Origin: Candidatus Omnitrophota bacterium
GTDB taxonomy: Bacteria; Omnitrophota; Gorgyraeia; Duberdicusellales; 4484-171
NCBI GenBank assembly: GCA_023818995.1
Contig: JAMWDA010000024.1
Location: 1-13,198, forward strand
Direction of reading: 5' to 3'
DNA: 13,198 nucleotides
Part shown: in pieces, positions 1 through 13,198 of the stretch
Layout of the letters: every line of letters begins with the position of its first letter
How positions within the stretch are numbered: the stretch's first letter is position 1
Notes under the pieces: model-generated
Database searches by the model: none
The model's input: the letters and a program-made list of their open reading frames with translations, nothing else
What the model was told of the DNA's origin: nothing
Made by a program: the position numbers and the translations under genes

Positions 1-138
1 GAGACAAAGGGTGAAGGACTCATATCCATTGCAAAGAGCATGGGATATGGTGATGAAAAGATGCTGCTTCAGGATTATTCCTATTACACAGGTCAGATAA
101 GAAGAATTTATAAGGATATTTTTCAATGTCTCTTATAG
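1..138 (+). CDS. C-terminal fragment, probable glutamine-synthetase adenylyltransferase (GlnE-like), 5' partial
   Basis: Frame 1 is open from the window edge to TAG at 136-138 and gives 45 residues. The stretch IAKSMGYGDEKMLLQDYSYY followed by TGQIRRIYKDIF fits the C-terminal pattern of GlnE: a hydrophobic helix with LGY/MGY, then an acidic turn, then LLxDYxxxTxxIRxIYxxIF near the stop. GlnE adenylylates and deadenylylates glutamine synthetase in the cytosol in response to PII and glutamine. Only the last helices are present, so no catalytic residue can be checked, and an unrelated helical C-terminus remains possible. The gene converges on the giant minus-strand gene, and 119 bases overlap it. 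The residues after the conserved part (QCLL) may belong to a junction. That this is real coding sequence is more certain than its name. Confidence 0.58.
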   Translation, partial: ETKGEGLISIAKSMGYGDEKMLLQDYSYYTGQIRRIYKDIFQCLL

Positions 139-183
139 CATTAAAAAGGCGTTGATTAAGAGATGGGTTCCCCTTCACCCTTT
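6..183. repeat. 12-bp inverted repeat flanking the overlap region
   Basis: AAAGGGTGAAGG at 6-17 is the exact reverse complement of 172-183. The arms bracket the overlap of the two convergent genes, about 154 bases apart. This is too far apart for a normal terminator hairpin, and no T-run follows. It may be chance or may mark a rearrangement. Confidence 0.5.
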
Positions 184-3100
184 TAATAATCTCCTTTCCT
201 CTCTTTCTTAGTTGAGGATAATAATCAAAGATAATCTTTGCTCCGATATGTCGCTTTTCGTGGTCTAGATATTTAGAATCAAATAAAAATATAACCTTGT
301 CAAAATCATCTATCTTAATTTGTTTCCCCAATAAATTTAGTAAGTACTTTGCTGCGCGAGCATTAGGGGGTACCATACCACCCATTATCAAATTCTCATG
401 ATTGGTGCCATAAATTTTCTTCTCAAGTTTCTTCATTTCTTCTCGAGTCATGTATATAACTCTCACATTATTATTATATGCTGTAGTACCTCCTCTTTCC
501 CACTGCTGGATAAATTTAAGATCTACTACATAATGCGGCATCACTTCAGGAGCAAAAAGAATTTCTTTAACCCTCTTAATAAAATCAATAAATCTCCCAC
601 CCACCAAATCACCTTCTCTACCCACTTCCTTAATTACCTTTTTATCATTATCGCCTAACTTAAGTTTACTAAACTCCTCTTCAGAAATAGCCTCAGCATG
701 CCATACAATCCTGCCATCGGATAATTTAGCACTACTCTCTATCTTTATCGCTCCTTTTACATCGGGTAAACTTACATAGTAAATGCCATCTCTATGGTAA
801 ATATCTATATCCTTACCTTCCTCTTGGTAAAATCCTCTTAAAATATCTAATGCATGTTGTAAATTAAACACAGGAATAATTTTGTCTGAGGTAACTATAT
901 ACTCTTTATCTTCGCTAAATAAGTTATTTAATAGGTTGGCAATATCTTCTTGTCCAAGCTTTCTCAAAGCTTCTACCAAGCAATTCTCACCTTCTACATC
1001 TGGCTGTCCACGAATATCTATTTTGCCATATACAACTACCGTTATCGGTGGAATATCTTTGCCATCTAATCTGTTAATAATAAAAAGAATATTAAGAATG
1101 TCGTTATTATTCAAAACCACTTTATTACTCCCATATTTAATATCTGTTATCTTAATCTCTCTCATCTTCATACTATTGCCACATATTTCTTTGTATGGTA
1201 TATATAAAGCCTGATTTAGATTTTCTAATTTCTCTATTATCTCTGGATAAGCTTTAAGAAACTCTTTGTGGGCTTCTACTGCTTTTTGGTGGGAGCCAGT
1301 TTCACATTCAACTTTCCCATGTAGAGCAATGGCTTGGAGGGCAATTGATTTTTCGCTCGCACTAAATAACTCATTAAATCTTTCCCAAACCTCTTTTGAG
1401 AAGTAAACCTCTAAGATGCCATCTACTACCCTCTCATAAATAAATACTGGCGGAGCATTGGCTGGCTGGCTGGTCAAAACAAAGAATTTAACCGGCATAC
1501 CTGCTATATGAGAAACACCTCCCTTAAATTCATCAATCTCTTCGTATTTCTTTTCATTAATCACTCCCTCAATTTCCTTAATATCCTCCTCACCCAAATT
1601 CCCAAAGAAGCCTTGGTTTTCTTTAGGCATAGAAGTAGTAGTAATCCTTTCAATAATAGCAGTAATCTGAGAATCATCTAATTTTTCTTGATTGGTGGAA
1701 TTAATAATAACTTGCTTATTAACTTGCTTATCTTCAACTTTAATATCATCCAAACTAACTTTGTTATTATTTGCCCAATTTTCTACAATTGAAGAAACTT
1801 CATTTCTTAATTCTTGGTTCTTATCTTTTAATAAAGGTACCAACTTGATAATATGTGTAGCGGAATTTAATTCCCTGAATTGGGTGTAGATTTCCTTTAT
1901 CTTTATGAGTGCGGTAATCCTTACCGATATATCTATTTTCTCGTCTATAGCAATACTTAAGCAAGTATTCAATAATCTTTCCGCACGATTTCTTATCTCT
2001 TTCTTTTCTTTACGGGATTTATCTTTAGTATCTAATTTATTATTACTTACACTATTTATCAGTCCTGATAAAAAACTACTGTCATTTTTTCCTTTTGAAG
2101 CGTAACCAATAGAGGCTAAAATAGGTAATACTAAATCATAATATTCTTCTCTTTCAGCAATATTTTGTATTACCTCCTTTGCTTTATTTTTAATTTCCTC
2201 CTTTGCTTTATTTTTAATTTTATTACCTAACTCCTTATCTGCTACTATCTTTACCAATATACGCAAAGGATTATGAGATTCACAAACCCACTCTAATAAT
2301 TTGTCAAGTTCATCTAATGCCGTAGAGATATCCTTTAACTTTTCATCTTTGTATGCGCCTTCTAATCTCTCTACATAATAATCTATGGGATGTTTGAAAA
2401 GCAATAATGAATTATCAGTAACTTCCGCAGGATTAAATTTAATATCAAAATTAACAGTAATCGTGTAGCTATCCTTTATTCTTTGCTTTACTGACTTATA
2501 TATGGTCTTTTTACCTCCATACTCAATTCTTAACTTCTCACATACCCATTTTAGATATCCTTCATCTTCTATTACACCTGTCATAAGAAACTTAGCAAAG
2601 GCAAGTCTTCTTAAAGCATTTTCAGACATTAAAATTAAAGCAATAATTCTTTCTTCTTCGGTTTTATCTTTCGCCCTAACATTACCAATCTCTCTGATCT
2701 GTCTTACAATCTCTTCATTAATTATGAATTCTTTTATATTTTCATCACTAAACTTTAATATCAATAATTTCAGTATTTTTCTTTCTTCTTTACTTAATCC
2801 TTTTATTTCTCTCTTTAATTCTTTATACCAACTTTTTGCCTTATCTTCTACTACATCCTCAAAGATATAAATCTCCTTGCTATCTATGGATATGGCTGAG
2901 AGCGGTAATTTTTCTGTTACGCTTTCTTTATCTTCCGTGGTAAGATAATAGATACTTTTTCCTTCGCGTTGTTCAACTTTATTTACTTTAAATACCTTCA
3001 ATCTCTTATTAACATATACTGCCCGTAGTTGTTTATTTTTAGAAGTAAAGTGAGAATTGATTGCGTTCATTACCTCTTTGATATCATCTTCTGTTAAATC

Positions 3101-6100
3101 ATACGCTTGCATACGTGTTAATAAATTATTTATGCTGCTCAATAACTCATCTGAGTCATTATCTAATTGAGATATTGTATTAATCAATGCATTTTTAAAT
3201 TGGTCATTACCTTTACTATTCTCTTCTTCCTTGGGTAAAAGCCAAGGTGAATATTTACCAATTATAGCTCTTGCATTCTTACAAAGTGGGATATCTTTTA
3301 ATTCTGTTACTTGAATTATACCACTTACATTCTGTCTCTTTACCCGGCTTATATCATTATCTTCATTTTGTAAACCACCCATAAGAGGAAGGGAAAGAAT
3401 AAATAAATATGCGGATGATGTTCTTGAACTCCCCAATATTTTCTCTAAACCAATTTTACTCAAGACTCCCCAGATAAAGATACTGAACCCGATAATAGCA
3501 AAAATCTTAGAATGGGAAAGAGGAGCGATTAGAATTAATCCAATTCCACCTATAAAGAGTAATTTTCCAAAAACCTTTGAGAACTTATCCACAATGTTAT
3601 TTGCTTTTTCAAATGCTATTTGTTCATTTACCTTTCTCATCTTTACTCTTGCAATTAATCCTTTTAACAATCTTGAACCATCAGCAGGAGAGAAAGGTAA
3701 GAAGAAATTAAATAAGCCAAGCACCAAATTAATCCAGGCAAAATTAGATAAACCTAAAGCAAAGAATAATCTTGCAAGTAAGAAATTGCTCATCGGCCCG
3801 GCTAAAGCAATCCAAAATTCCTGTTTAGAATTCTCCCAACTTCTGCCTTCTTTATTTCTTCCAATATTAGCTACTGCTCCTAAAGCTAACCTAATTGAAT
3901 CCGTTGGGAAACCGAATCCTTTCGCAGTTAAGGAGTGACATACTTCATGGAATAATACAAATGCCAATATTATGGTAAGAATCTGCCATTTGGTAAATAA
4001 TAATATTCCCAGCAAAGCAAAACTCCAATGTATGCCAAAGTAAATATTGGTGAAAGGTATCCTTACCTCTACTGCTCCCCTCTTAGCTCTAAACCACGCT
4101 CGCTTCTCTCTTCCTTCTTTGAAAACATATACCGGTTTACCAAATTTTTTCTTTTCACTCTTAGAAAATCGGACAGGTGAATAGATAGAAAATTCGTCTC
4201 GTATAGGCTCAACTTGTGCAGCTTCTCCTTTCTCATTAAGAACAAGCCAATATGTAGAGAGTGTATTATTATTATTTGGAAATAGAAATGCACCTAAAAC
4301 AGTGATAATCTTCCCTTCTTTAGACATTATTAATAAAGGTTCATTTTCTGAATTGAAGTATTCTTGGATTTTATCAGCATCTGCCATATATAAATAAACA
4401 GACCTATTTAACTTTTTAATTATTCTTATAAGATTTAATTCGTATTTACCTTCTAATATCAATCCGATTATGCACTGGGCAATTTCTCTCCTCTTGATAT
4501 TAAAGGTTATGGCTAAAGATTCAATAACATAAGGTAAAGCGCCTGTTTTGTTTGTGTCTAAGTTATTTATTAGGTCATCAAGTTTACCTATAATAACATT
4601 CTTTTCACCCTCAGATTTAGGCAATAAATATTTTGACAACTCGGAAAGGCCTTTTTCTTCTAAAAATTCTTTAGCCTTATTTATTTCCAACTTATTATTC
4701 TTCTTATTTAAATTTAAACGGGATAATTCATCTTTGTATTCCCTAAGCTTATCAATATATCTATCTAATACCAACTCACCTTGAAGTGAGTGTGCATTTT
4801 CATCATTAAACTCTACATCCTCCTCCTCGTGTATATCATACTTACCTTTTAACGCTGCAAAATTCATCCTCCAAACTTCTTCGCCAATCTCTGAGAAACG
4901 AATTTTTCCTTTTTCTCCCAAACGCAAGAGATAGAGGAATTTATTTAAGTTTTCTTCTGTCTCATTTATTACAAAATTATCATCTAAATTCTTAAATACA
5001 GCCTTAACTAAACGTTGTAAACCTTGAAGAGAAACATTTCCATTTCCATCTCCAACTTCCTTTAAGACTTTAGGAACATTATATAAGAATAATAATCTCC
5101 TGCGATAATACTCGTATTCGGCAAGCTTTCTCTCTATATCGTAGTCGTTATCGGTCAACTCTCTCTGACTCCCGCTATTTCTAATCCTAACAATATCCTC
5201 AGCTTTGTCTATTTCCTTATTTATCTCATCAACTTTTTCTTGAATAGGTTTAGCCACCTTCTGTGCAGAAACCTTCTGAGCTACTTCTAATATTGACTGG
5301 CGGCAAACTAAGGCTGGTTTGTTTTCAGCTTCTATTGCCTCCTTCAATCCTTGAAGTATTCTCTTCAATGTAATATACTTACGAGCTTTAATAATCCTAT
5401 CAGTTACTTTTTTATTTTCATCCCAATTATTATTATTTAACTGTGCTATCATCACATCTATATCTTCTCTTCTTTTGTGTATTTTTTCCCCTTTTTTAGT
5501 AGTTTTATTCTTATTATTCCAAGCTATAAGCAAATTCTTATATGCCTTCAGTAACTCTATTATCTCCTCTTTTGCCTCACCTAATGTCTTGGGATTATTT
5601 TTATTAAGTAAATTATCAATCACACCCTGTGCTTCTTTTAATCCCACCCTAAAATTCCTATTTGGGTTATTACTCTTATTATTTTCTAAATCATTAATAA
5701 CCTTCCTTATCTCCTCAATAACCGATGAATAATCCTCTTTTTGTCTCTTTATAGCTTTGAGTTCTGTAATCAAGGTTTTAATCTGCTCAAAAGTTTTGGT
5801 AAACACATCTATTACATCTGTGTCTTCTTCTCTCTGCCAATAACTTACCTTTCCTTCTCTTTCTACACTTGCCTCTGCCCATCTTTTAACCATAGAAACT
5901 AACTTAGTCAGCATATTTTCTAATTCTTTCTTTACCTTATTCTTAATATTCTTATCTTTAATCTTACTTAAAATTGATTCCGTAAACTGAATTGTAATAC
6001 CCTCAAAACTAAATCCTGATAAAATGTTGTTAAATTTCTGTCCTAACAACTCCTTTAACTTATCTTTTCCTATAAGATGTACCCTTAAATCACGTTCTGT

Positions 6101-9100
6101 GGTATGAGTGAGAGCCTCTATTGCTTTTACTTTCTCCTCAGGAGTCTTATTACTATCCTCTAAAATTGTTCTTATGGTGTAATAAAAATCTTTTCTTATC
6201 TCATCTCCTCTATTTATACCAGTTAAAGTAACACCTGTAGCAATCCCTTCATTTTCCTTAAAACCAAAGTGTTCTTCTGCCTTATCTATTGCTTTAGAAA
6301 TCTTTGTGGCAAGTTTTTCTGCATACATTCGGAGAAACTCACATATCTTATCCTGTGTATTCTCTTCACCAAATAAAAATTTCATTGCTTCTTCGTTTTG
6401 GGAAATAAGTTTACCTGCCCTTTCTTCCCAAATGTTAGGACCGGTTTTTTGAAGAGAATCAAGAGATGATCTTATTCCTTCTTTTGGATCTTCATTGGGT
6501 ATTTCTTCTGGATCTTCATTGGGTATTGCTAGCACTTCATTAAGAGCTTTACGAGCTTTTGCTTTCTTTGCCTCCTCTTTTAAATCCTCAATATTTTTCT
6601 GGTTACGAGGATCAACTAAGAAACTAAGAGATGTATACCCTTCATATTTCTTTTTATCCTCTTCAGGTAATAGCCCTATAGCCTTCTGAATACCTTGGGA
6701 TAAGTTTTGTAATTTTCCAACTAACGCCTTTACTGCCTCAATATTAACTTTTCCATCATTACCTATTATTGCTACTTCCTCAACATCTATTTTTACTGTT
6801 CTATGATGTAAGGATGAGAACCACAAAATCATCCCTAAAACCTGAGAATATTTCTCCTCATTATTTTTATGAACAATCTTTCCAGCAATTTCCTTAGCAC
6901 TCTCAAGGGTAAGTTGTCCCTGCTCTTTTTCATCCTGGGGTTCTCCCTGCTCATTTTTTCGCTCAATCGCCTTGTGCATCTCGTTAAGAATCTTCTTCTC
7001 CTTTCTTAAAGGTAACTGAGCAAATTTATTAGCTAACCATTTAACCACACCAAACAAAACTCCTATAACCATAAATAAAAGTATACGTGCAAAAAATTGA
7101 TGAATGCTTAGAGCTGAACTAAACAAATTAATTAAACCAAAGTGATTAGCAACAAAATTAATCAGAAAATTAACAATCATCAGAGGAATTATTTTACCCA
7201 TAACCACAGGATTGGCTGAATCTGTTTTTCTTTCTCTACGATTCACTCTATTATACAGAAACTCGGCAAAATTATTATTGCTAACCATCTCTAACACCTC
7301 TTTAAATTTGGTGCGTTTGCTAACAAATTTCTCTGTTTTTAACTTTTGAGGTTTATTTATCCAATCCCATGCCTCTTTTACCTCACCAAATTCAGGAAAC
7401 CCTGCTAATCTATAAAACTCATCAGGATCAAAATTACCTATATTTAATTTCTCAAAAAGCTCAACCAGTTTTTTAGCCTCTGATATTCTTTTCCAATTAC
7501 TTAACTTCGTGGGATGAGTATAAGAAAGATAGGCAAAGGTAAAACGAAGAGCATCTTCATCAATATCAATCCTCTCTCTTCCCAAAAGCTTACTCAATAT
7601 TTTTTTAGCCTCATCTAACTTACGAGGTAACTTATTCCCTCTATAATCCTCGTATTTACGGATAAATCTACTCAATCTACGCACATCTCTATTACCTTTG
7701 AGAGGATAGTCTAAAATAAAGGATGTGACTTCATCCAAAACTGGTTTTTGTTTCTCGTAATTACGTCTTGCCCACCAATTAGGAGAAATCAGGGGTATTC
7801 TTCTCCTACTTAACTCTAAATGCAAAGTAACATAGCCGGGATTACTCATCAGCTCATCTAACAACTCTTTTCTTGTCCATCCATAAGCATTTTCCTGCTG
7901 AACTTTTGATAATAAAGCGCAATATATTTCTCCCATACTAACGGCAAGAGCTAAACTCTTAAAATCAGTATAATTAGATAAGGGTGTTATTTGAGGAATA
8001 GCTAAGAAAGTAAGTATATCGGCAAGTTCTTTCTTTTGATCATTTGTAAGGTCTTCTTGATTATAAACTTCCTTGGCAGGTTCTTTCTTTTGATCATTTG
8101 TAAGGTCTTCTTGATTATAAACTTCCTTGATATATTGATAAACAGATTTAATATAAGTCAATTTTTTATCCGGAGGAAGAGCACTTAGAGGAGTGTTTTT
8201 ATGCTCGTTTTCAAGATTTCCACGAAATTTATTACTTTCATTATCTAAATCTAAAATTAGCTTAACTAATAAAGGAGGTCCAGTAGAAGGATTAGATTCT
8301 AAAATTTGAGCAATTAGTGTTAAAATCTCATCTCCCCTAAGCATCCTATGATGGATATCTTGATAGAAGCTTGGTTTGCCACCTTCATATTTATCGAAGA
8401 ATTTCTCGTCATTTTCAGGGTTTAATTTGTGCAAGACCTTAGCTATCTTTGGATTCCTACTCACATCACCAGGAACGCGCACAGCCTCAGGTAAGATTCT
8501 ATCCTCAAAACTCCGTGCAGTCATAACAATATCCTCAAAACTACGCGCTTTCTGGAAACACATACTCTCTTGTATAGTTTCCTTCTTAAGTGAATCGTAA
8601 TTATTTATTGCCCGCCTTGCTGAATCTCTTAATCTTTTTGCTTCTAAGCGAGACAGATTAGAGACATCTTTATTTCTAGCAATCTCATCAAAGATTTTTT
8701 CTGCCTGCTGCAACACACCCCTAATATTTTGACGCAAAACATCTTCTCCTTCCAGAGAATAAGGAGAAAGGGCTAAATCGCTATCTGTAACCCTATATCT
8801 ATTTCTGATTGCCTGATGTAACTTTTCTTCAAGGAACTTAGATTCTTCTGATTTTTCTCTCTCTTCCTTATTCTTATCCCCATTAATTTCTTCTGCCCGA
8901 CGTAACATACTCTTTATAGACTCAATAATTAATGAGTGAAGTGCCTCTCGGCTATTATGAAGCAGTGCCTCAGAAATATTGATAATATCGCGATAATGGG
9001 CATTAGTAAGTAAATTGCTTAAATCCTTGTCCTCAGATTTGTAAGAACTTACTGTCTCATCTATTATATTCTTACGTGTTTTCTCTCCCTGTGATAATAA

Positions 9101-12100
9101 AGGACGTTCCAGCTCATTTTCTATCTTTTTCTTTACCTCCTCTGGTAATTTTCCTTCATTTTGTATAAAGTTATTTTTATCACATAAGACAATTCGCTCT
9201 CCTTGCTCACCTTGGCGGTTATTTCTATATATTGCCTGTAATAAATCTGAGTATGTCCAATTCTCTCCATCTACAATAAGAAGGTCACGCTCACCCTCAT
9301 AACTATATCCTGTAGCACCACGAACATTAGAGAGGATTATTGTCTTCTCATTTTCTTTCTTTTGTAGTCTATTGATATCCCATACATTATCATCATTACT
9401 AATTTCCGGCGTCTGCCCATCAATAATTTTAATTTCATCCATACCAAATTCCTTCCCTAATTTATCCCTCAACTCTTTTAATAATTCCTCGTTATAACAG
9501 AAAATAAGCATACCCTTATATCCTTTATGTGCCCTCACTAGTTCTACTACCTTATCTATCCTATCCTTACTTTCTACGGAAAGCACCTGGGCATTAAATA
9601 TCGTCTCACTGATGATAAACACTCCCTTACCTAAGTGCAATCTATGTAACATCTCTACACCAGCTAATGTCCCTGAATAACCTAAAACTGAAGTAAAAGG
9701 ACTAAATCTTAACACTTCAGCTAAAGTCGCCTGATGTGTGGTTTCCGTAACATAGATTTTATCCCAATTTATTTCTACCTTATCTTGCTCTTTTCTTTTT
9801 TCATTTTCTCTTTCCTCTTTTATTAACAATGCCGTGAAATATACTGGGTCACTTATTTCCTTATCTATCTGAACCTTTCCTCTATCTTTTGGCTTAGGTA
9901 CTCCATCAACAAATTCATATCTATTACCATCACTAAATCTTGCTTCTAAACAGGCATAAACTGCAGTAGGATTGAGGTTTTTATTATGTATATCTTGCAT
10001 TGCTACCTCATTTAATCCGAATTTTCCATCTAAACCATGGTAAACCATTGGCTCTTCACTTTCCTCTACTGACTTTTTGTCGCTACCCTCCCTAAGAGCA
10101 GCTACCCAATCATAAGCTTTCTCTACTTGTTCTCTACTTAATCCTACCTCAGCTAAGGCTTTAGTAATATGTTTGTGCCCGCCACCAATAATATATGTTA
10201 CTCTATCCGAGAAAGGTATGTGCAGCTCGTCAATTCTCACTATATCCTGGCCGATAAGGGTAGCTAATAAGTCAGGGTCATTTATATTACGAATATGGCC
10301 AAACTGTGTCTGACTAAACACCACAATCTTATTAGGATTAGATAATGCCTCTTTTAAACCTGAAGAATTACTATCGCTATTTCTTAAATCTAACATTTCT
10401 TCATCTGCACTCACCAATTCTAAACCAAAACGAGCTAATAATGGTCGGACAATCTTACCCTTCTCCCCTGGAGGATTTACTAATCCCGATACCTCATCGG
10501 TTTTAACTACCCAAACCATATTTACCTTGGGATTTAGTAAAGACCACACGATATACTCCATTGCTCCACCTAATGTCTTTCCTCCTGATGCCTCAAGAGC
10601 AATACTCTGTTCAGATAAAAGACCCAAAACCATCTGTAATTGCTCGCTTGCCTTTTTCGTGTCAAAAACTTTATTTTCTTCATTTTCTTTTTCATTTTCT
10701 TCTTTTTCATTTTCAAATTCTTTTCTTATAAATTCAAAACCTTCCTTTAATGCTCTTGCCAGTATCTTCATAGCTGCGGTAGTTGGATCATCTTGTTCTA
10801 AACCACTTAGTATAGATTCTCTTACTATTCTGGCAATTATCTGCTCTTTAAATTTTATTATTTCTCCATCATTCTCATTTATATTATTTAAATCAACATT
10901 ATTATTCTTTCCAAGATATATTCCTTCGAGGTCGACCCCTTTAGATTTAGCTTTCTCTATAAGTTCTTGTAATTTATTATTTACATCAACTTCAACCGGC
11001 TTATATTCACCAAATTCTTTTATTAGCAAATTGACTATCGTTGCTTTCTCAATTTCTTCTGGTGTAAGTTGTTTATTATTATTATCATAATCATCATACC
11101 TATTTAATAATTTTTCTAGTTCACTTCCTTCTTTTGCACTTAATATTAAACTTTCATTTTTACACACTACTTTCAGAGAGCTTATATCCTCTTTAGTTAA
11201 TATCGTGAATGCTTTTTTCAGAAGTAGTGTTTTTTTGACGAATTCTTTCCATTTAGGATGTTTGTCATCAATAACAATACCTCCGATTTTAACAATTTTT
11301 CTTTTCTTGGGTGTATTCCAGGCATTCCAGGCATTTTCTAAATTTTCAACTGATTCTCTTTCTATAGCTTCACCTACTTTAACATCCACAGTACTGTTTA
11401 TTATCTCTACAGGAATATAAGCATATCTATTCAAGCCAATCTTTACCCTGATTTTTTGCTGAGAACCATTATTTTCCGCCTCTCGTTGTGCATTTCCAAG
11501 CTCTTTAAGAGATACCTTCTTAGTAAGATACCAATTCATTGCCGCCGTTTCAGAAGGTATAGCCCCATCAAAATTCTCCCTAATATATTCAATCCTTATA
11601 TCTCTCTCCGCCCTCAAAGTTTCTTTAATGGGAAGAGCACCTTGGTAGTTTTTCTCTTCCAAAGCATACTTACTTTTTACCACTTCTATTGCCTTATTTT
11701 TTATTAATCTTATTAGTGGTTTTAACTCTTTATTATTCTCACCCCTTAACCATGCGTTTTCATAATCTATTATTGCTTGTTGGAAATCTATCTGGGCAGA
11801 GATTAAATCTTTCTTTTCTTTATTTTGTTCTTCCTTCAATTCACTCTCAAGTTTGCTCTTTTCCTCTTCTGCATCCTCTCTCCTCTTAAAATGTCCACCT
11901 ACTATATGAGCAAAAATATCTCTGGCATGAGAAGATAACTTACCGACGAAATCAATCCTACTGTAAGGATCAACTTCATTAACTACCTCTGTCACATCTA
12001 ACTTATTATCACCTCCTTGTAAGTTCTTAATAAGTTCCTCAATTATATTAACCGCTTCTTGCTTATTACCTTTTAACAATTCCTTTGCTGCTTTTTCTAA

Positions 12101-13198
12101 CAATTCCTTTGCTGCTTTTTCAACTCCCCCATCGGATAGAGATACACCTTTCTCCTCCAGTTTCTTCTTCAAAGCTGACTTTAAATTTTCAACACTCCAT
12201 TTAAAACCTCCTCCTTCAACAACTCTTCTCACTATCTGACTAATCAATGAGTTTATTTCCTCTTGAGGAAGCTCAACATCTAATTTAACTCTTGTCCCAT
12301 CAGGGAAGATAAACTCTACATTCTCGAATAATCTCCGTGCGTTGGTATTATTATCATTAATTAATCCTTCCTGTGTTAGTAACCTCATACGAAGATGATA
12401 TAGTACGCTTCCTGTAAGTATCGACATCTTAATATAAATATCCTTTATCAGGTTAATCTTGGCTATATAGGAAAGTGATTCCTTAGTATCCTTCATTTTT
12501 TTGAGATACTCTACTGCTTGGGAAACAGGAACATTTTTAGGAAGTATATTATCTAGAAAATCACTACGTTCTTTGTCTTTTAAGTTTAAAATCTTATCTG
12601 CTGACTCATTATATTTTTCTTTATCCTCTTTTCTCTCACCAGCAAGCCATAGAATATCAGCTATAAAATTCTTTAAGTAATCATTTGCTTCTTCCTCATT
12701 CCCTTCTTTAGAAGCTTTAAATGCTTGCAGAAGATAAGCTACTGCGTTGTAAATAGCCTCAGCATACAACCAATCACCATCCGCTGTCCCCCAAGATTCT
12801 CCTTTTTCCTCACGAATTTCGTATTGCTTATAAGCCAACTTTCCAATTATTTCATTTTTATCTGCTCCTTTATTAAAGATTTTTTCTGCCCAATATCTAT
12901 AAAACTCCATCTCATTTTCATAATCTTGCTCATCTGTATTACCCTGCATTATTGCCATAATCTGAGCAGCTAGTTCTATAAACCTATTTTTTAACTCCTC
13001 ATTACGATGAGCAATCTGCTTAAACACCTTACTAACTCCTCCCAATTCCCTTATAACCCTACGTAACTCCTTATATTTGTTGGATATATATCCTCCCCAT
13101 CTCCTCCCCCTATCTAACGCCCCTTCACCTTCATCTGCATAATATTTGGGAAATAATATCCTTGCTACATCTCCCACACCTTTACCAAAACTAACCAA
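20..13198 (-). CDS. Giant multidomain membrane protein with SecA-like ATPase and site-2-protease modules (5' partial)
   Basis: One uninterrupted frame of 4,392 codons ends at TGA (bases 20-22). It is still open at the window edge: the first codon there is TTG (Leu), with no visible ribosome binding site, so the real start is upstream and the protein is longer. Domains seen, by residue in this window: DUF2934-like stretch 116-150; acidic Glu/Asn linker 825-843; SecA-like superfamily-2 core 845-1345 (ASGGKT, DELH, SGT, YRNNRQG); two-helix membrane segment about 2006-2058; M50/site-2-protease 3050-3250 (HEVCH 3084-3088, AGPMSN, PADG); HEAT-like helices about 3622-3816; C-terminal HEKRH 4313-4317. 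The rest is helical, Lys/Glu/Asn-rich sequence that I do not recognise. Size and architecture recall giant proteins of Omnitrophota. Cellular role is unknown; a membrane-anchored motor plus protease is inferred. The last 30 or so residues overlap another gene and may not be native. Confidence 0.93.
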   Translation of the reverse strand: MVSFGKGVGDVARILFPKYYADEGEGALDRGRRWGGYISNKYKELRRVIRELGGVSKVFKQIAHRNEELKNRFIELAAQIMAIMQGNTDEQDYENEMEFYRYWAEKIFNKGADKNEIIGKLAYKQYEIREEKGESWGTADGDWLYAEAIYNAVAYLLQAFKASKEGNEEEANDYLKNFIADILWLAGERKEDKEKYNESADKILNLKDKERSDFLDNILPKNVPVSQAVEYLKKMKDTKESLSYIAKINLIKDIYIKMSILTGSVLYHLRMRLLTQEGLINDNNTNARRLFENVEFIFPDGTRVKLDVELPQEEINSLISQIVRRVVEGGGFKWSVENLKSALKKKLEEKGVSLSDGGVEKAAKELLEKAAKELLKGNKQEAVNIIEELIKNLQGGDNKLDVTEVVNEVDPYSRIDFVGKLSSHARDIFAHIVGGHFKRREDAEEEKSKLESELKEEQNKEKKDLISAQIDFQQAIIDYENAWLRGENNKELKPLIRLIKNKAIEVVKSKYALEEKNYQGALPIKETLRAERDIRIEYIRENFDGAIPSETAAMNWYLTKKVSLKELGNAQREAENNGSQQKIRVKIGLNRYAYIPVEIINSTVDVKVGEAIERESVENLENAWNAWNTPKKRKIVKIGGIVIDDKHPKWKEFVKKTLLLKKAFTILTKEDISSLKVVCKNESLILSAKEGSELEKLLNRYDDYDNNNKQLTPEEIEKATIVNLLIKEFGEYKPVEVDVNNKLQELIEKAKSKGVDLEGIYLGKNNNVDLNNINENDGEIIKFKEQIIARIVRESILSGLEQDDPTTAAMKILARALKEGFEFIRKEFENEKEENEKENEENKVFDTKKASEQLQMVLGLLSEQSIALEASGGKTLGGAMEYIVWSLLNPKVNMVWVVKTDEVSGLVNPPGEKGKIVRPLLARFGLELVSADEEMLDLRNSDSNSSGLKEALSNPNKIVVFSQTQFGHIRNINDPDLLATLIGQDIVRIDELHIPFSDRVTYIIGGGHKHITKALAEVGLSREQVEKAYDWVAALREGSDKKSVEESEEPMVYHGLDGKFGLNEVAMQDIHNKNLNPTAVYACLEARFSDGNRYEFVDGVPKPKDRGKVQIDKEISDPVYFTALLIKEERENEKRKEQDKVEINWDKIYVTETTHQATLAEVLRFSPFTSVLGYSGTLAGVEMLHRLHLGKGVFIISETIFNAQVLSVESKDRIDKVVELVRAHKGYKGMLIFCYNEELLKELRDKLGKEFGMDEIKIIDGQTPEISNDDNVWDINRLQKKENEKTIILSNVRGATGYSYEGERDLLIVDGENWTYSDLLQAIYRNNRQGEQGERIVLCDKNNFIQNEGKLPEEVKKKIENELERPLLSQGEKTRKNIIDETVSSYKSEDKDLSNLLTNAHYRDIINISEALLHNSREALHSLIIESIKSMLRRAEEINGDKNKEEREKSEESKFLEEKLHQAIRNRYRVTDSDLALSPYSLEGEDVLRQNIRGVLQQAEKIFDEIARNKDVSNLSRLEAKRLRDSARRAINNYDSLKKETIQESMCFQKARSFEDIVMTARSFEDRILPEAVRVPGDVSRNPKIAKVLHKLNPENDEKFFDKYEGGKPSFYQDIHHRMLRGDEILTLIAQILESNPSTGPPLLVKLILDLDNESNKFRGNLENEHKNTPLSALPPDKKLTYIKSVYQYIKEVYNQEDLTNDQKKEPAKEVYNQEDLTNDQKKELADILTFLAIPQITPLSNYTDFKSLALAVSMGEIYCALLSKVQQENAYGWTRKELLDELMSNPGYVTLHLELSRRRIPLISPNWWARRNYEKQKPVLDEVTSFILDYPLKGNRDVRRLSRFIRKYEDYRGNKLPRKLDEAKKILSKLLGRERIDIDEDALRFTFAYLSYTHPTKLSNWKRISEAKKLVELFEKLNIGNFDPDEFYRLAGFPEFGEVKEAWDWINKPQKLKTEKFVSKRTKFKEVLEMVSNNNFAEFLYNRVNRRERKTDSANPVVMGKIIPLMIVNFLINFVANHFGLINLFSSALSIHQFFARILLFMVIGVLFGVVKWLANKFAQLPLRKEKKILNEMHKAIERKNEQGEPQDEKEQGQLTLESAKEIAGKIVHKNNEEKYSQVLGMILWFSSLHHRTVKIDVEEVAIIGNDGKVNIEAVKALVGKLQNLSQGIQKAIGLLPEEDKKKYEGYTSLSFLVDPRNQKNIEDLKEEAKKAKARKALNEVLAIPNEDPEEIPNEDPKEGIRSSLDSLQKTGPNIWEERAGKLISQNEEAMKFLFGEENTQDKICEFLRMYAEKLATKISKAIDKAEEHFGFKENEGIATGVTLTGINRGDEIRKDFYYTIRTILEDSNKTPEEKVKAIEALTHTTERDLRVHLIGKDKLKELLGQKFNNILSGFSFEGITIQFTESILSKIKDKNIKNKVKKELENMLTKLVSMVKRWAEASVEREGKVSYWQREEDTDVIDVFTKTFEQIKTLITELKAIKRQKEDYSSVIEEIRKVINDLENNKSNNPNRNFRVGLKEAQGVIDNLLNKNNPKTLGEAKEEIIELLKAYKNLLIAWNNKNKTTKKGEKIHKRREDIDVMIAQLNNNNWDENKKVTDRIIKARKYITLKRILQGLKEAIEAENKPALVCRQSILEVAQKVSAQKVAKPIQEKVDEINKEIDKAEDIVRIRNSGSQRELTDNDYDIERKLAEYEYYRRRLLFLYNVPKVLKEVGDGNGNVSLQGLQRLVKAVFKNLDDNFVINETEENLNKFLYLLRLGEKGKIRFSEIGEEVWRMNFAALKGKYDIHEEEDVEFNDENAHSLQGELVLDRYIDKLREYKDELSRLNLNKKNNKLEINKAKEFLEEKGLSELSKYLLPKSEGEKNVIIGKLDDLINNLDTNKTGALPYVIESLAITFNIKRREIAQCIIGLILEGKYELNLIRIIKKLNRSVYLYMADADKIQEYFNSENEPLLIMSKEGKIITVLGAFLFPNNNNTLSTYWLVLNEKGEAAQVEPIRDEFSIYSPVRFSKSEKKKFGKPVYVFKEGREKRAWFRAKRGAVEVRIPFTNIYFGIHWSFALLGILLFTKWQILTIILAFVLFHEVCHSLTAKGFGFPTDSIRLALGAVANIGRNKEGRSWENSKQEFWIALAGPMSNFLLARLFFALGLSNFAWINLVLGLFNFFLPFSPADGSRLLKGLIARVKMRKVNEQIAFEKANNIVDKFSKVFGKLLFIGGIGLILIAPLSHSKIFAIIGFSIFIWGVLSKIGLEKILGSSRTSSAYLFILSLPLMGGLQNEDNDISRVKRQNVSGIIQVTELKDIPLCKNARAIIGKYSPWLLPKEEENSKGNDQFKNALINTISQLDNDSDELLSSINNLLTRMQAYDLTEDDIKEVMNAINSHFTSKNKQLRAVYVNKRLKVFKVNKVEQREGKSIYYLTTEDKESVTEKLPLSAISIDSKEIYIFEDVVEDKAKSWYKELKREIKGLSKEERKILKLLILKFSDENIKEFIINEEIVRQIREIGNVRAKDKTEEERIIALILMSENALRRLAFAKFLMTGVIEDEGYLKWVCEKLRIEYGGKKTIYKSVKQRIKDSYTITVNFDIKFNPAEVTDNSLLLFKHPIDYYVERLEGAYKDEKLKDISTALDELDKLLEWVCESHNPLRILVKIVADKELGNKIKNKAKEEIKNKAKEVIQNIAEREEYYDLVLPILASIGYASKGKNDSSFLSGLINSVSNNKLDTKDKSRKEKKEIRNRAERLLNTCLSIAIDEKIDISVRITALIKIKEIYTQFRELNSATHIIKLVPLLKDKNQELRNEVSSIVENWANNNKVSLDDIKVEDKQVNKQVIINSTNQEKLDDSQITAIIERITTTSMPKENQGFFGNLGEEDIKEIEGVINEKKYEEIDEFKGGVSHIAGMPVKFFVLTSQPANAPPVFIYERVVDGILEVYFSKEVWERFNELFSASEKSIALQAIALHGKVECETGSHQKAVEAHKEFLKAYPEIIEKLENLNQALYIPYKEICGNSMKMREIKITDIKYGSNKVVLNNNDILNILFIINRLDGKDIPPITVVVYGKIDIRGQPDVEGENCLVEALRKLGQEDIANLLNNLFSEDKEYIVTSDKIIPVFNLQHALDILRGFYQEEGKDIDIYHRDGIYYVSLPDVKGAIKIESSAKLSDGRIVWHAEAISEEEFSKLKLGDNDKKVIKEVGREGDLVGGRFIDFIKRVKEILFAPEVMPHYVVDLKFIQQWERGGTTAYNNNVRVIYMTREEMKKLEKKIYGTNHENLIMGGMVPPNARAAKYLLNLLGKQIKIDDFDKVIFLFDSKYLDHEKRHIGAKIIFDYYPQLRKRGKEIIKRVKGNPSLNQRLFNAIRDIEKYPYKFFLSDLCNRNNPEAASFHHHIPCSLQWI
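185..560 (-). other. C-terminal zincin-like domain with HEKRH motif
   Basis: About residues 4213-4338. The segment runs from MPHYVVDLKFI through NVRVIYMTREEMKKLEKKIY to IDDFDKVIFLFDSKYLDHEK, and ends RHIGAKIIFDYYPQL. The motif HEKRH (4313-4317) has the HExxH form and follows a predicted beta strand (KVIFLFD), as the active-site helix does in zincins. The third ligand cannot be assigned. HExxH occurs by chance in long charged proteins, so this is a candidate only. It is the last domain-like part before the overlap with the plus-strand gene. Confidence 0.35.
1230..1460 (-). other. Degenerate zincin-like segment
   Basis: Residues about 3913-3990. A beta-like stretch (PPVFIYERVVDGILEVYF) precedes a helix IALQAIALHGKVECETGSHQ and KAVEAHKEFL. 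The spacing of H3960, E3964, H3970 and H3977 looks like a zinc-binding helix, but the position expected for the catalytic Glu next to the first His is Gly (HGKVE). If it derives from a metalloprotease it is probably inactive. This is inference from pattern, and a plain structural domain is equally possible. Confidence 0.3.
1459..1473. repeat. Tetranucleotide TGGC tract, 3.75 copies
   Basis: Bases 1459-1473 are a perfect period-4 run. It encodes part of TSQPANAPP in the giant protein. Unlike the other repeats in this window, its unit is not a multiple of three, so a slip by one unit would frameshift the last 430 or so codons of the frame. Confidence 0.85.
1751..2335 (-). other. HEAT-like helical repeat region
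   Basis: About residues 3622-3816. There is a succession of amphipathic helix pairs, with elements such as ISVRITALIKIKEIYTQF and IIKLVPLLKDKNQELRNEVS (the latter is the classic turn of a HEAT unit: LVPLLKDKNxxLRxxV). HEAT-like arrays usually form a curved scaffold that binds other proteins. The repeat number cannot be fixed by eye, and only the last two units are convincing. This region lies between the protease and the C-terminal part. Confidence 0.5.
2173..2220. repeat. 24-bp perfect tandem duplication
   Basis: Identical copies at 2173-2196 and 2197-2220 encode the repeated helix element IKNKAKEE / IKNKAKEV (about residues 3660-3676), inside the HEAT-like helical region. Confidence 0.97.
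3435..4080 (-). other. Site-2-protease (peptidase M50) domain inside the giant protein
   Basis: About residues 3040-3255. A hydrophobic helix (from I3052) leads into the zinc motif HEVCH (H3084, E3085, H3088). Then come WIALAGPMSN (3129-3138), which matches the conserved AGPxxN motif of bacterial site-2 proteases, and LFNFFLPFSPADGSRLL with D3173, which matches the NLLPxxPLDGGR motif that supplies the third zinc ligand. Two further hydrophobic helices follow (KLLFIGGIGLILIAPL and IFAIIGFSIFIWGVL). All predicted catalytic residues are present, so an active intramembrane zinc protease is plausible. The family cleaves transmembrane helices of membrane-bound regulators. The arrangement is closest to the compact SpoIVFB/Rip type: there is no PDZ domain between the motifs, and the separation of HExxH and DG is short. 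The odd point is its position 3,000 residues into a giant polypeptide. Confidence 0.88.
4055..4400 (-). other. Mixed alpha/beta segment preceding the M50 domain
   Basis: Residues about 2930-3045. Beta-like stretches (SVYLYMAD, PLLIMSKEGKIITVLGAFLF, YWLVLNEKGEA, GKPVYVFKEG) stand out from the purely helical sequence before it. The segment runs directly into the protease (VEVRIPFTNIYFGIHWSF). It may be a cytosolic or periplasmic sensor or cap for the protease. I do not recognise a family. Confidence 0.4.
6486..6530. repeat. 24-bp tandem repeat, about 1.75 copies
   Basis: The 18 bases from 6486 recur at 6510 with period 24. The protein reads IPNEDPEE then IPNEDPKE (about residues 2223-2238), a Pro/acid-rich linker between helical segments. 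Confidence 0.93.
7020..7200 (-). other. Two-helix membrane segment in mid-protein
   Basis: About residues 2000-2060. Two strongly hydrophobic stretches, LMIVNFLINFVANHFGLINL (2006-2025) and ARILLFMVIGVLFGVVKWLA (about 2037-2056), are separated by a short polar turn and flanked by basic residues (a RRERK cluster before, LPLRKEKK after). This looks like a membrane hairpin that would anchor the protein between the SecA-like core and the long charged region. By the positive-inside rule both flanks favour the cytosol. No functional motif is visible. Confidence 0.75.
8021..8129. repeat. 54-bp in-frame tandem duplication
   Basis: Copies at 8021-8074 and 8075-8128 (the match continues one base further) differ at a single base (8025 A against 8079 G). 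In the giant protein they encode two 18-residue units, KEVYNQEDLTNDQKKEPA and the near-identical next unit, at residues 1691-1726. The near identity implies a recent duplication. The unit is a multiple of three, so the frame is preserved. Confidence 0.97.
8501..8560. repeat. Imperfect 30-bp tandem repeat
   Basis: The element ATCCTCAAAACT-CG-GC occurs at 8501 and again at 8531. It encodes ARSFED twice, ten residues apart (about residues 1551-1566). Divergence outside the core suggests it is older than the 54-bp and 24-bp duplications. Confidence 0.8.
9164..10666 (-). other. SecA-like superfamily-2 ATPase/helicase domain inside the giant protein
   Basis: About residues 845-1345. Motifs occur in SecA order: Walker A-like EASGGKT (K874); a VVFSQTQFGHI strand at the place of the SecA YGTNNEFGFDYLRD motif; motif II IDELH (D990, E991, H993) followed by IPFSDRVTYII, parallel to SecA VDEVDSILIDEARTPLII; an insertion with YEFVDGVPKPKDRGKVQID resembling the substrate-crosslinking (PPXD) region; GYSGTL (1173-1178) matching the SecA GMTGTA motif; a second RecA-like lobe with MLIFCYN, then RGATGYSYEG (motif V); and QAIYRNNRQGEQGE (from Q1321; motif VI arginines R1325 and R1328). 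Family knowledge: SecA-type cores use ATP to move polypeptide, while related helicases move nucleic acid. The SecA scaffold/wing C-terminal domains are not obvious, so this is a SecA relative rather than housekeeping SecA. ATPase function is likely; the substrate is unknown. Confidence 0.82.
10672..10725. repeat. Low-complexity Glu/Asn/Lys tract
   Basis: A TTTTC/ATTTTC-type pyrimidine-rich stretch on the plus strand reads on the minus strand as a chain of Glu, Asn and Lys (EFENEKEENEKENEENK, residues 825-843). It is a flexible acidic linker directly before the SecA-like core. Confidence 0.85.
11315..11335. repeat. 9-bp tandem repeat, 2.3 copies
   Basis: ATTCCAGGC occurs at 11315 and 11324, with a partial third copy. 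It encodes NAWNAWN (about residues 621-628). It is short but perfect and in frame. Confidence 0.85.
12074..12121. repeat. 24-bp perfect tandem duplication
   Basis: Two identical 24-base copies (12074-12097 and 12098-12121) encode EKAAKELL twice in the giant protein (residues 360-375). They lengthen an amphipathic helix by an exact eight-residue unit. Confidence 0.97.
12749..12853 (-). other. DUF2934-like motif
   Basis: Residues 116-150 contain IIGKLAYKQYEIREEKGESW followed by GTADGDWLYAEAIY. This resembles the DUF2934 consensus, a helix of the form IRxRAYxLWxxxGRPxG, then a short acid loop and DWLxAExEL. The function of that family is unknown; it occurs as a short module in many proteins of uncultivated and Gram-negative bacteria. 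The identification rests on pattern only, and the central Arg and Pro of the consensus are replaced here. Confidence 0.45.

Follow-up and report, generated by a model that had tools for sequence, protein, structure and literature searches.

Giant proteins are an established feature of the bacterial phylum Omnitrophota. PMC10066038 reports a Velamenicoccus protein of 39,678 amino acids (aa) together with giant open reading frames of more than 20 kb, and PMC12419801 describes Skillet-clade Lipocone giants as mosaics of peptidases (papain-like and metallo-), methylases, signalling domains and transmembrane segments. Such giants raise the question of how a small bacterium exports and uses proteins of at least 10,000 aa. 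The subject is a stretch of 13,198 nucleotides (“the window”; contig JAMWDA010000024.1 of a Candidatus Omnitrophota bacterium) that is filled by a single open frame, in which a remotely SecA-like ATPase core, a membrane hairpin and a site-2 protease of family M50 share one polypeptide. With the giants of PMC10066038 the window has in common the giant single frame, the scarcity of annotated domains, several membrane segments and the phylum; it differs in that its frame is cut at 13.2 kb, and a text search of that paper gave neither SecA nor helicase. With the Skillet-clade giants it shares the mosaic make-up, a likeness that leaves the Lipocone domains themselves aside, and a text search of PMC12419801 likewise gave no SecA.

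At the level of individual domains, the core resembles SecA (PF07517) in the order and spacing of its motifs, in the great distance that separates motifs II and III, in the P-loop and in the DE pair; it differs in having DExH in place of DEVD, in the missing profile match, in its setting within a giant chain and in that scaffold and tail domains are not recognised. The protease is like other site-2 proteases of family M50 (PF02163) in its HExxH, GPxxN and DG motifs and in several hydrophobic segments, and unlike them in a one-residue insertion in the third motif loop and in its fusion within a giant chain. A further parallel is offered by the effectors of Amoebophilus, in which a SecA-like ATPase is a module of conflict proteins; PMC3482391 names SecA-like domains among the C-terminal domains, and the likeness is one of description. 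PMC10469934 mentions both Omnitrophota and SecA, but concerns SecADFY in Patescibacteria. The giants as such are already known, and for a SecA-like core or a fused site-2 protease within them no account was found in the open-licence PMC literature, to the extent that its text was accessible; a preprint cited in PMC12057145 (West-Roberts 2023) may describe such domains.

In our reading, the window belongs to a modular giant, an envelope or conflict protein. The explanation that we favour, at about even odds, takes it for an inner portion of a modular Omnitrophota giant that is tethered to the membrane. A SecA-like motor would sit on the cytoplasmic face of this giant and would spend ATP on moving polypeptide (in the simplest case, stretches of the giant itself or of partner proteins) while a surface protein that spans the envelope is exported or assembled. 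At their start, such giants would carry a signal-like segment and then a C39 peptidase. M50 would be a drop-in module for processing, which cleaves either the giant chain or a different membrane protein within the membrane, without being an obligate partner of the motor. The recurrence of the SecA-like ATPase, in some giants behind the signal-like segment and C39 of the same frame, provides a concrete enzymatic handle on these proteins, as the core lends itself to expression, P-loop mutation and localisation.

The window is the complete contig C82 of genome G000, an assembly of 1.58 Mb in 222 contigs (G, C and L numbers denote genomes, contigs and loci throughout). Its frame, read on the minus strand, enters at base 13198 and terminates with a stop codon that occupies bases 20-22, and since this stop lies at the other end of the contig, the C-terminus may not be a real one. 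Core-bearing relatives reach 15,520 and 25,048 aa. Peptidase_M50 is the sole Pfam domain above cut-off in the whole chain (5.9e-13); the NCBIfam scan of the chain returned 0 families, and Rfam (gathering threshold) and tRNA scans of the window returned none. The assignment to Omnitrophota agrees with a 78% match to G001:C74, from a genome of the same genus, and to JAMWBQ010000129.1, labelled Candidatus Omnitrophota; as both have a length of 4,530 and an identical match, we treat them as a single contig. A first-pass annotation of this DNA had seen a SecA-type ATPase core, a membrane hairpin and a complete M50 protease in one polypeptide at positions 3435-10666 (aa 845-3255 of the frame); all three were confirmed (Table 1), with the SecA kinship being remote, as no SecA profile matches.

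Table 1. Features of the window. Coordinates are window positions; aa numbers refer to the open frame.
Feature	aa	Position	Strand	Basis or remark
SecA-like ATPase module	845-1655	8234..10666	-	part aligning with other Omnitrophota giants
Walker A, ASGGKT	870-875	10574..10591	-	sequence motif
Motif II, DELH	990-993	10220..10231	-	DExH; SecA has DEVD here
Stretch between motifs II and III	~180-185 aa long	9677..10219	-	matches the SecA preprotein-crosslinking domain in location and length; putative equivalence from spacing and hhalign
Motif III, SGT	1175		-	sequence motif
Motif VI, QAIYRNNRQG	1321-1330	9209..9238	-	sequence motif
Membrane hairpin	1998-2016 and 2034-2052	7043..7207	-	hydropathy; no charge in loop; also in G001
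Peptidase M50 domain	3048-3255	3434..4057	-	Pfam PF02163
Zinc motif, HEVCH	3084-3088	3935..3949	-	sequence motif
Third M50 motif, PADG	3171-3174	3677..3688	-	sequence motif
M50-bearing insertion, widest bounds	3015-3279	3362..4156	-	absent at site from G001/P0003
Single open frame, piece of giant protein	4,392 aa long	20..13198	-	fills contig; N-terminus cut off by contig end
C-terminal module	3859-3995	1214..1624	-	relatives in G001:C79 (twice), G001:C63, G000:C8, G000:C4
Second HExxH, HEKRH	4313-4317	248..262	-	near contig end; no Pfam match in this part

The SF2-type ATPase motifs of the window span aa 870-1329 and are arranged as in SecA, with motifs II and III 185 aa apart. For comparison, 17 SecAs were used, namely the one of the window genome and the 16 loci obtained for the 27 matching genomes, and 15 aligned cores, from 13 of the 28 core-bearing genomes plus the relatives P0004 and P0005. 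The distance from GKT to DEVD is 104 aa in 16 of the SecAs and 125 aa in the remaining one, and that from DEVD to TGT is 163-200 aa in all 17; in the cores, motifs I and II are 104-119 aa apart (7 of 15 readable by pattern) and motifs II and III 185-215 aa (9 of 15 readable), one further core having been excluded from these counts after a misfire of the motif pattern. The corresponding II-III distance is 30 aa in three DEAD-box controls, which argues against the core being an ordinary SF2 nucleic-acid helicase whose SecA likeness stems from shared RecA folds only. GK[ST] is kept in 14 of the 15 aligned cores and DE in all of them, which suggests that ATP use is kept; by their retained Walker motifs, the cores would seem to meet ATP, whether inside the producer or inside a targeted cell.

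Several results weigh against a kinship with SecA and on the side of a plain SF2 helicase. The window has no match to SecA_DEAD (PF07517) even at E values up to 1, in a search that did find the canonical SecA on G000:C125, and no other SecA profile reaches it; because SecA_DEAD does not match, “SecA-type” can here mean remote homology only. In single-sequence hhalign comparisons, 5 of the 17 SecAs exceed 50% (best 93.8%), and the best of 19 non-SecA SF2 controls, a RecG-like protein, reaches 57.1% in an alignment of 127 columns that lies at the second RecA domain. Fold models of the core are weak (predicted local distance difference test 55 and 60), and in the fold comparison the best 50 matches listed are tied at Z 11.9-13.6, SecA being level with chromatin remodellers, DEAD-box chains and other SF2 proteins. 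Scanned alone, three of five members of the core family match Helicase_C (best 1.9e-5), and NCBIfam and PADLOC give weak one-member matches only, among them RadD (0.024), BilA (0.0036) and ZorD (0.0079).

Against the helicase explanation stands evidence of several kinds. The same member scans yielded P-loop_SecA (0.0011) and SecA2_Mycobac (0.0046), each in one of the five. Comparison of the 15-row core alignment with a 17-row SecA alignment by hhalign gave 87.3% (E 3.8e-6, 340 columns); the 15-row profile is needed for this, as a 5-row core alignment gave no SecA link (0.1%). Collinear matches of at least 332 columns were obtained in 7 of the 17 SecAs and stayed at or below 162 columns in the 19 SF2 controls, and the best of 40 shuffles of the top SecA reached 0.6%. 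It is length and collinearity that carry the argument, since 12 of the 17 SecAs score lower than the best control. The controls were the longest frames of 22 DEAD loci, from which L191 and L198 (SecA) and L204 (a SecA locus with the wrong frame picked) were dropped; L202, among the 19 kept, is probably also a wrong frame, and L141 was selected for display once its score was known. Four of the best 50 fold matches are SecA, including the two longest alignments (335 and 316 residues, the others at most 268); the list stems from VIA-align, where a missing family excludes nothing. A search of the PDB with the core profile A2 gave no match.

The core and SecA are, furthermore, bridged by four frames in which SecA domains can be recognised (G368, G261, G111 and G285). 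The core family matches these frames at E 1.1e-12, they in turn match SecA at 7.2e-63, and a local SecA profile matches three of them, G285 being the exception. Among the 28 genomes searched, SecA_DEAD lies above cut-off inside the giant frames G261:C5 (9,166 aa) and G285:C31 (9,619 aa). Taken together, motif spacing and profile comparison speak for a remote SecA kinship, and we regard the plain helicase as very unlikely.

The core is not confined to the window. Profile A2 (E ≤0.001) matched 28 of 384 Omnitrophota genomes, in 23 of which the best match lies in a frame of at least 2,000 aa (the other five frames measure 1,081-1,509 aa); nine of the 28 have weak best matches only (E 1.4e-6 to 5.3e-4) and need care. 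Core-bearing frames include those of G007 (15,520 aa), G200 (15,303 aa), G143 (14,792 aa) and G186 (25,048 aa). A protein search with the window core, which scored only the 1,705 candidates with the most words in common, retrieved, besides the window protein itself, P0003 (Omnitrophica, 76%) and P0004 (40%), and a search with the P0004 core added P0005. P0004 is a relative of 6,158 aa labelled Deltaproteobacteria, which points to either a mislabelled bin or horizontal transfer; P0005 has 7,316 aa, with an N-terminal hydrophobic segment and, by eye, many repeats of about 80 aa ahead of the core. Scans of viral contigs with the core found no relatives, and tblastn against phages and plasmids found no match.

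The second enzymatic module is the M50 domain. Taken alone, it matches PF02163 at 8.7e-16 with 58.4 bits (49.1 bits within the whole chain; cut-off 27.2), and its nearest solved relative is MJ0392 (3b4r, E 0.0012). Hydrophobic segments at aa 3065, 3144, 3209 and 3232 are interspersed with the HExxH and DG motifs, the GPxxN loop is present, and the third motif carries the extra residue between N and P, relative to other aligned M50s; the aspartate of PADG is, we presume, a metal-binding residue.

Relatives that can be aligned around this domain lack it. P0003 follows the window as far as aa 3015 (65%) and resumes from aa 3279 (38%), the two parts adjoining each other in P0003, and the same M50-free junction is found in the same-genus genome G001; P0003 and G001 count once, since they are evidently the same organism or nearly so. 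G200, which is collinear with the window over five blocks, also crosses the site without an M50, and because its weak homology reaches aa ~3047, the insert proper is nearer to aa 3048-3279. With M50 absent from both relatives alignable there (2 of 2), the simplest reading is an insertion in the window's lineage; M50 appears, from these alignments, to be a lineage-specific insertion and not half of a conserved motor-protease machine.

The matches on both sides of M50 bear equally on whether two genes have been wrongly joined during assembly, as might be feared for a metagenome contig with a stop at one end and an N-terminus lying off the other. The flanks on either side are homologous to sequence in two relatives, M50 is in frame, the codon usage of the insert resembles that of the rest of the frame, and M50 occurs in giant frames of other genomes as well. 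As far as this can be tested, the chain is no assembly join, a doubt that the first-pass annotation had itself raised, and an artefact is highly improbable.

That the domain pair might be confined to this genome was a further doubt raised there; it does not apply, because core and M50 recur in one chain in G200 and, with a sub-threshold M50, in G162. Among the 28 core-bearing genomes, PF02163 is found in the core's own frame in two, G000 and G200, and the 9,937-aa frame of G162 has HEIGH...GPITN...NLLPIPAFDG downstream of the core at 22.4 bits, below cut-off. The order of the domains thus recurs, the ATPase lying upstream of M50 in all three; their spacing and site do not, with distances of ~2,100 aa in the window, ~4,300 aa in G200 and ~1,100 aa in G162, and the M50 subtypes differ by eye. 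A machine whose SecA-like motor passes substrates on to the M50 of its own chain, as first suggested, would be favoured by this recurrence, by the common chain and by the common side predicted below. Neither the differences among the three pairs nor the absence of M50 at the site in the same-genus relative and in G200 fit such a machine; moreover, no M50 was found in the core's frame in 25 of the 28 genomes, although contig ends truncate many of the frames concerned, and sub-threshold M50s in unfetched frames can be missed. Given the absence of M50 from relatives, a dedicated motor-protease device is very unlikely.

In addition, M50 occurs in giants in which the core was not detected. When the window M50 was searched in the 384 genomes, 180 matched, the matches listed lying mostly in frames of 200-400 aa; among these matches, four more giant frames bear an M50, all above the Pfam cut-off (G219, 20,993 aa; G256, 4,315 aa; G303, 5,791 aa; and G263:C2, 57,756 aa, with the M50 at 37045-37464, 2.5e-19). 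These four are called core-free solely for their absence among the A2 matches. In G086, an M50 match without the DG residues lies in a giant frame on a contig other than that of its weak core match. Enrichment of M50 with the core is not shown, as one of five giant frames among the matches listed, the window itself, has the core, and a protein search with the window M50, restricted to close relatives of 0.55-1.75 times the length of the window protein, returned only the window's own protein. The presence of M50s at different places in several giants suggests that these chains undergo membrane processing.

The first-pass annotation had asked whether motor and protease face the same side of the membrane; helix parity and charge pattern predict that they do. 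Two helices, those of the hairpin, lie between ATPase and M50, which places both on one side. Counts of K+R versus D+E are 5/4 before the hairpin, 0/0 in its loop and 9/3 after it, and 12/4 in the 34 residues ahead of M50, so that the positive-inside rule places both the side of the ATPase and the N-terminal flank of M50 probably in the cytoplasm. For site-2 proteases of the MJ0392 kind, we assume that the N-terminus and the active site are on the cytoplasmic side as well. This topology is weakened by its reliance on hydropathy and charge alone, by the nearly balanced charge ahead of the hairpin, and by the loops inside M50, which are also positive (5/4 after HExxH and 8/4 after DG). Between the signal-like segment and the core of other giants, the hydropathy parity is mixed (one weak helix in G175, three in G007 and four in G143); therefore, the side of the core is unproven. 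We infer that M50 was inserted in this lineage, that ATPase and M50 probably face the cytoplasm, and that the ATPase would drive polypeptide movement.

Further information on the chain's place in the cell comes from the beginnings of the giants. Six of them (G143, G175, G194, G200:C14, G277 and G041) share the N-terminal segment FKSSFKxWIRVVAFI...VFLPEQVAQA, of which looser forms occur in G007, G000:C81 and G001:C178; judged by its sequence, it is signal-like. A C39 peptidase (Pfam 4.3e-10) comes after it in G143 and G175. A profile of segment and C39 matches 18 of the 28 core-bearing genomes, several matches covering the C39 part only, and lies on the same contig and in a frame of the same length as the core in five (G143, G175, G041, G162 and G186); hence, it accompanies the ATPase more often than M50 does. 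Other results speak against an export signal as the common start of core-bearing giants: 10 of the 28 genomes have no match to the start profile, and the hydrophobic N-terminus of P0005 has no BLAST similarity to the other starts. Segment and C39 are, moreover, off the window contig; the likely start in this genome is on G000:C81, which cannot be joined to the window. Nor does the cysteine content set the giant cores clearly apart from canonical SecA: low cysteine was tried as a mark of export and dropped, as the means of 0.23% in the cores and 0.35% in canonical SecA have overlapping ranges.

An extension of this export theme would have the giant export itself, the signal segment starting the process, the built-in SecA-derived ATPase translocating the rest, and C39 or M50 trimming the product; we consider this quite unlikely. 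The main rival to our favoured explanation, though unlikely on balance, is that the giant is an inter-organism conflict protein sent to prey or host, where the SecA-like ATPase and the proteases would act as effector or self-processing domains with ATP available on the target side. Signal-like N-termini with C39 are in line with this, as is an Ig-like domain in both giant starts of this genus. A 6,607-aa frame on G001:C79 (4,900 aa scanned) mixes kinase-like, histidine-kinase-like ATPase, phosphatase and methyltransferase domains, and T2SSF pairs stand just upstream of the starts of G194 and G277, a Tad-like and a T2SSF gene ahead of that of G143. Effectors of Amoebophilus are reported to include helicase-related domains that resemble SecA (PMC3482391), and predation is the function proposed for gigantic Omnitrophota proteins with peptidases, methylases and transmembrane segments (PMC12419801); a part in prey or host contact, also raised at first pass, fits this published view of Omnitrophota giants (PMC10066038, PMC12419801). 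On the other hand, the charge pattern suits the producer's own membrane with the ATPase inside, and neither a delivery system nor a toxin domain nor an immunity gene is shown for this chain, whose frame is incomplete and whose contig holds no neighbouring genes. Ahead of the G175 start, the one gene tested is without a Pfam match, and a TonB_C-OEP fusion is the neighbour of the start in this genus. We prefer the membrane-tethered giant with its motor on the producer's cytoplasmic side, with the conflict protein as the alternative.

The giant start on G000:C81 comprises two C39 stretches and a putative Ig domain and adjoins, besides the TonB_C-OEP fusion, RND-type transporters, the latter by eye only. 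The fusion (L129:6482-8728) is a protein of 749 aa with two TonB C-terminal stretches fused to an outer-membrane efflux domain. The T2SSF genes (loci L132, L134 and L081) are paired in G194 and G277, 0.55-0.65 kb upstream of the giant starts, and these pairs are presumably TadB/TadC-like; in G143, the Tad-like and T2SSF genes lie ~4 to 8 kb upstream. Finally, HExxH motifs are not limited to the two of the window: the giant frames fetched contain 12 such motifs, which fall into several kinds.

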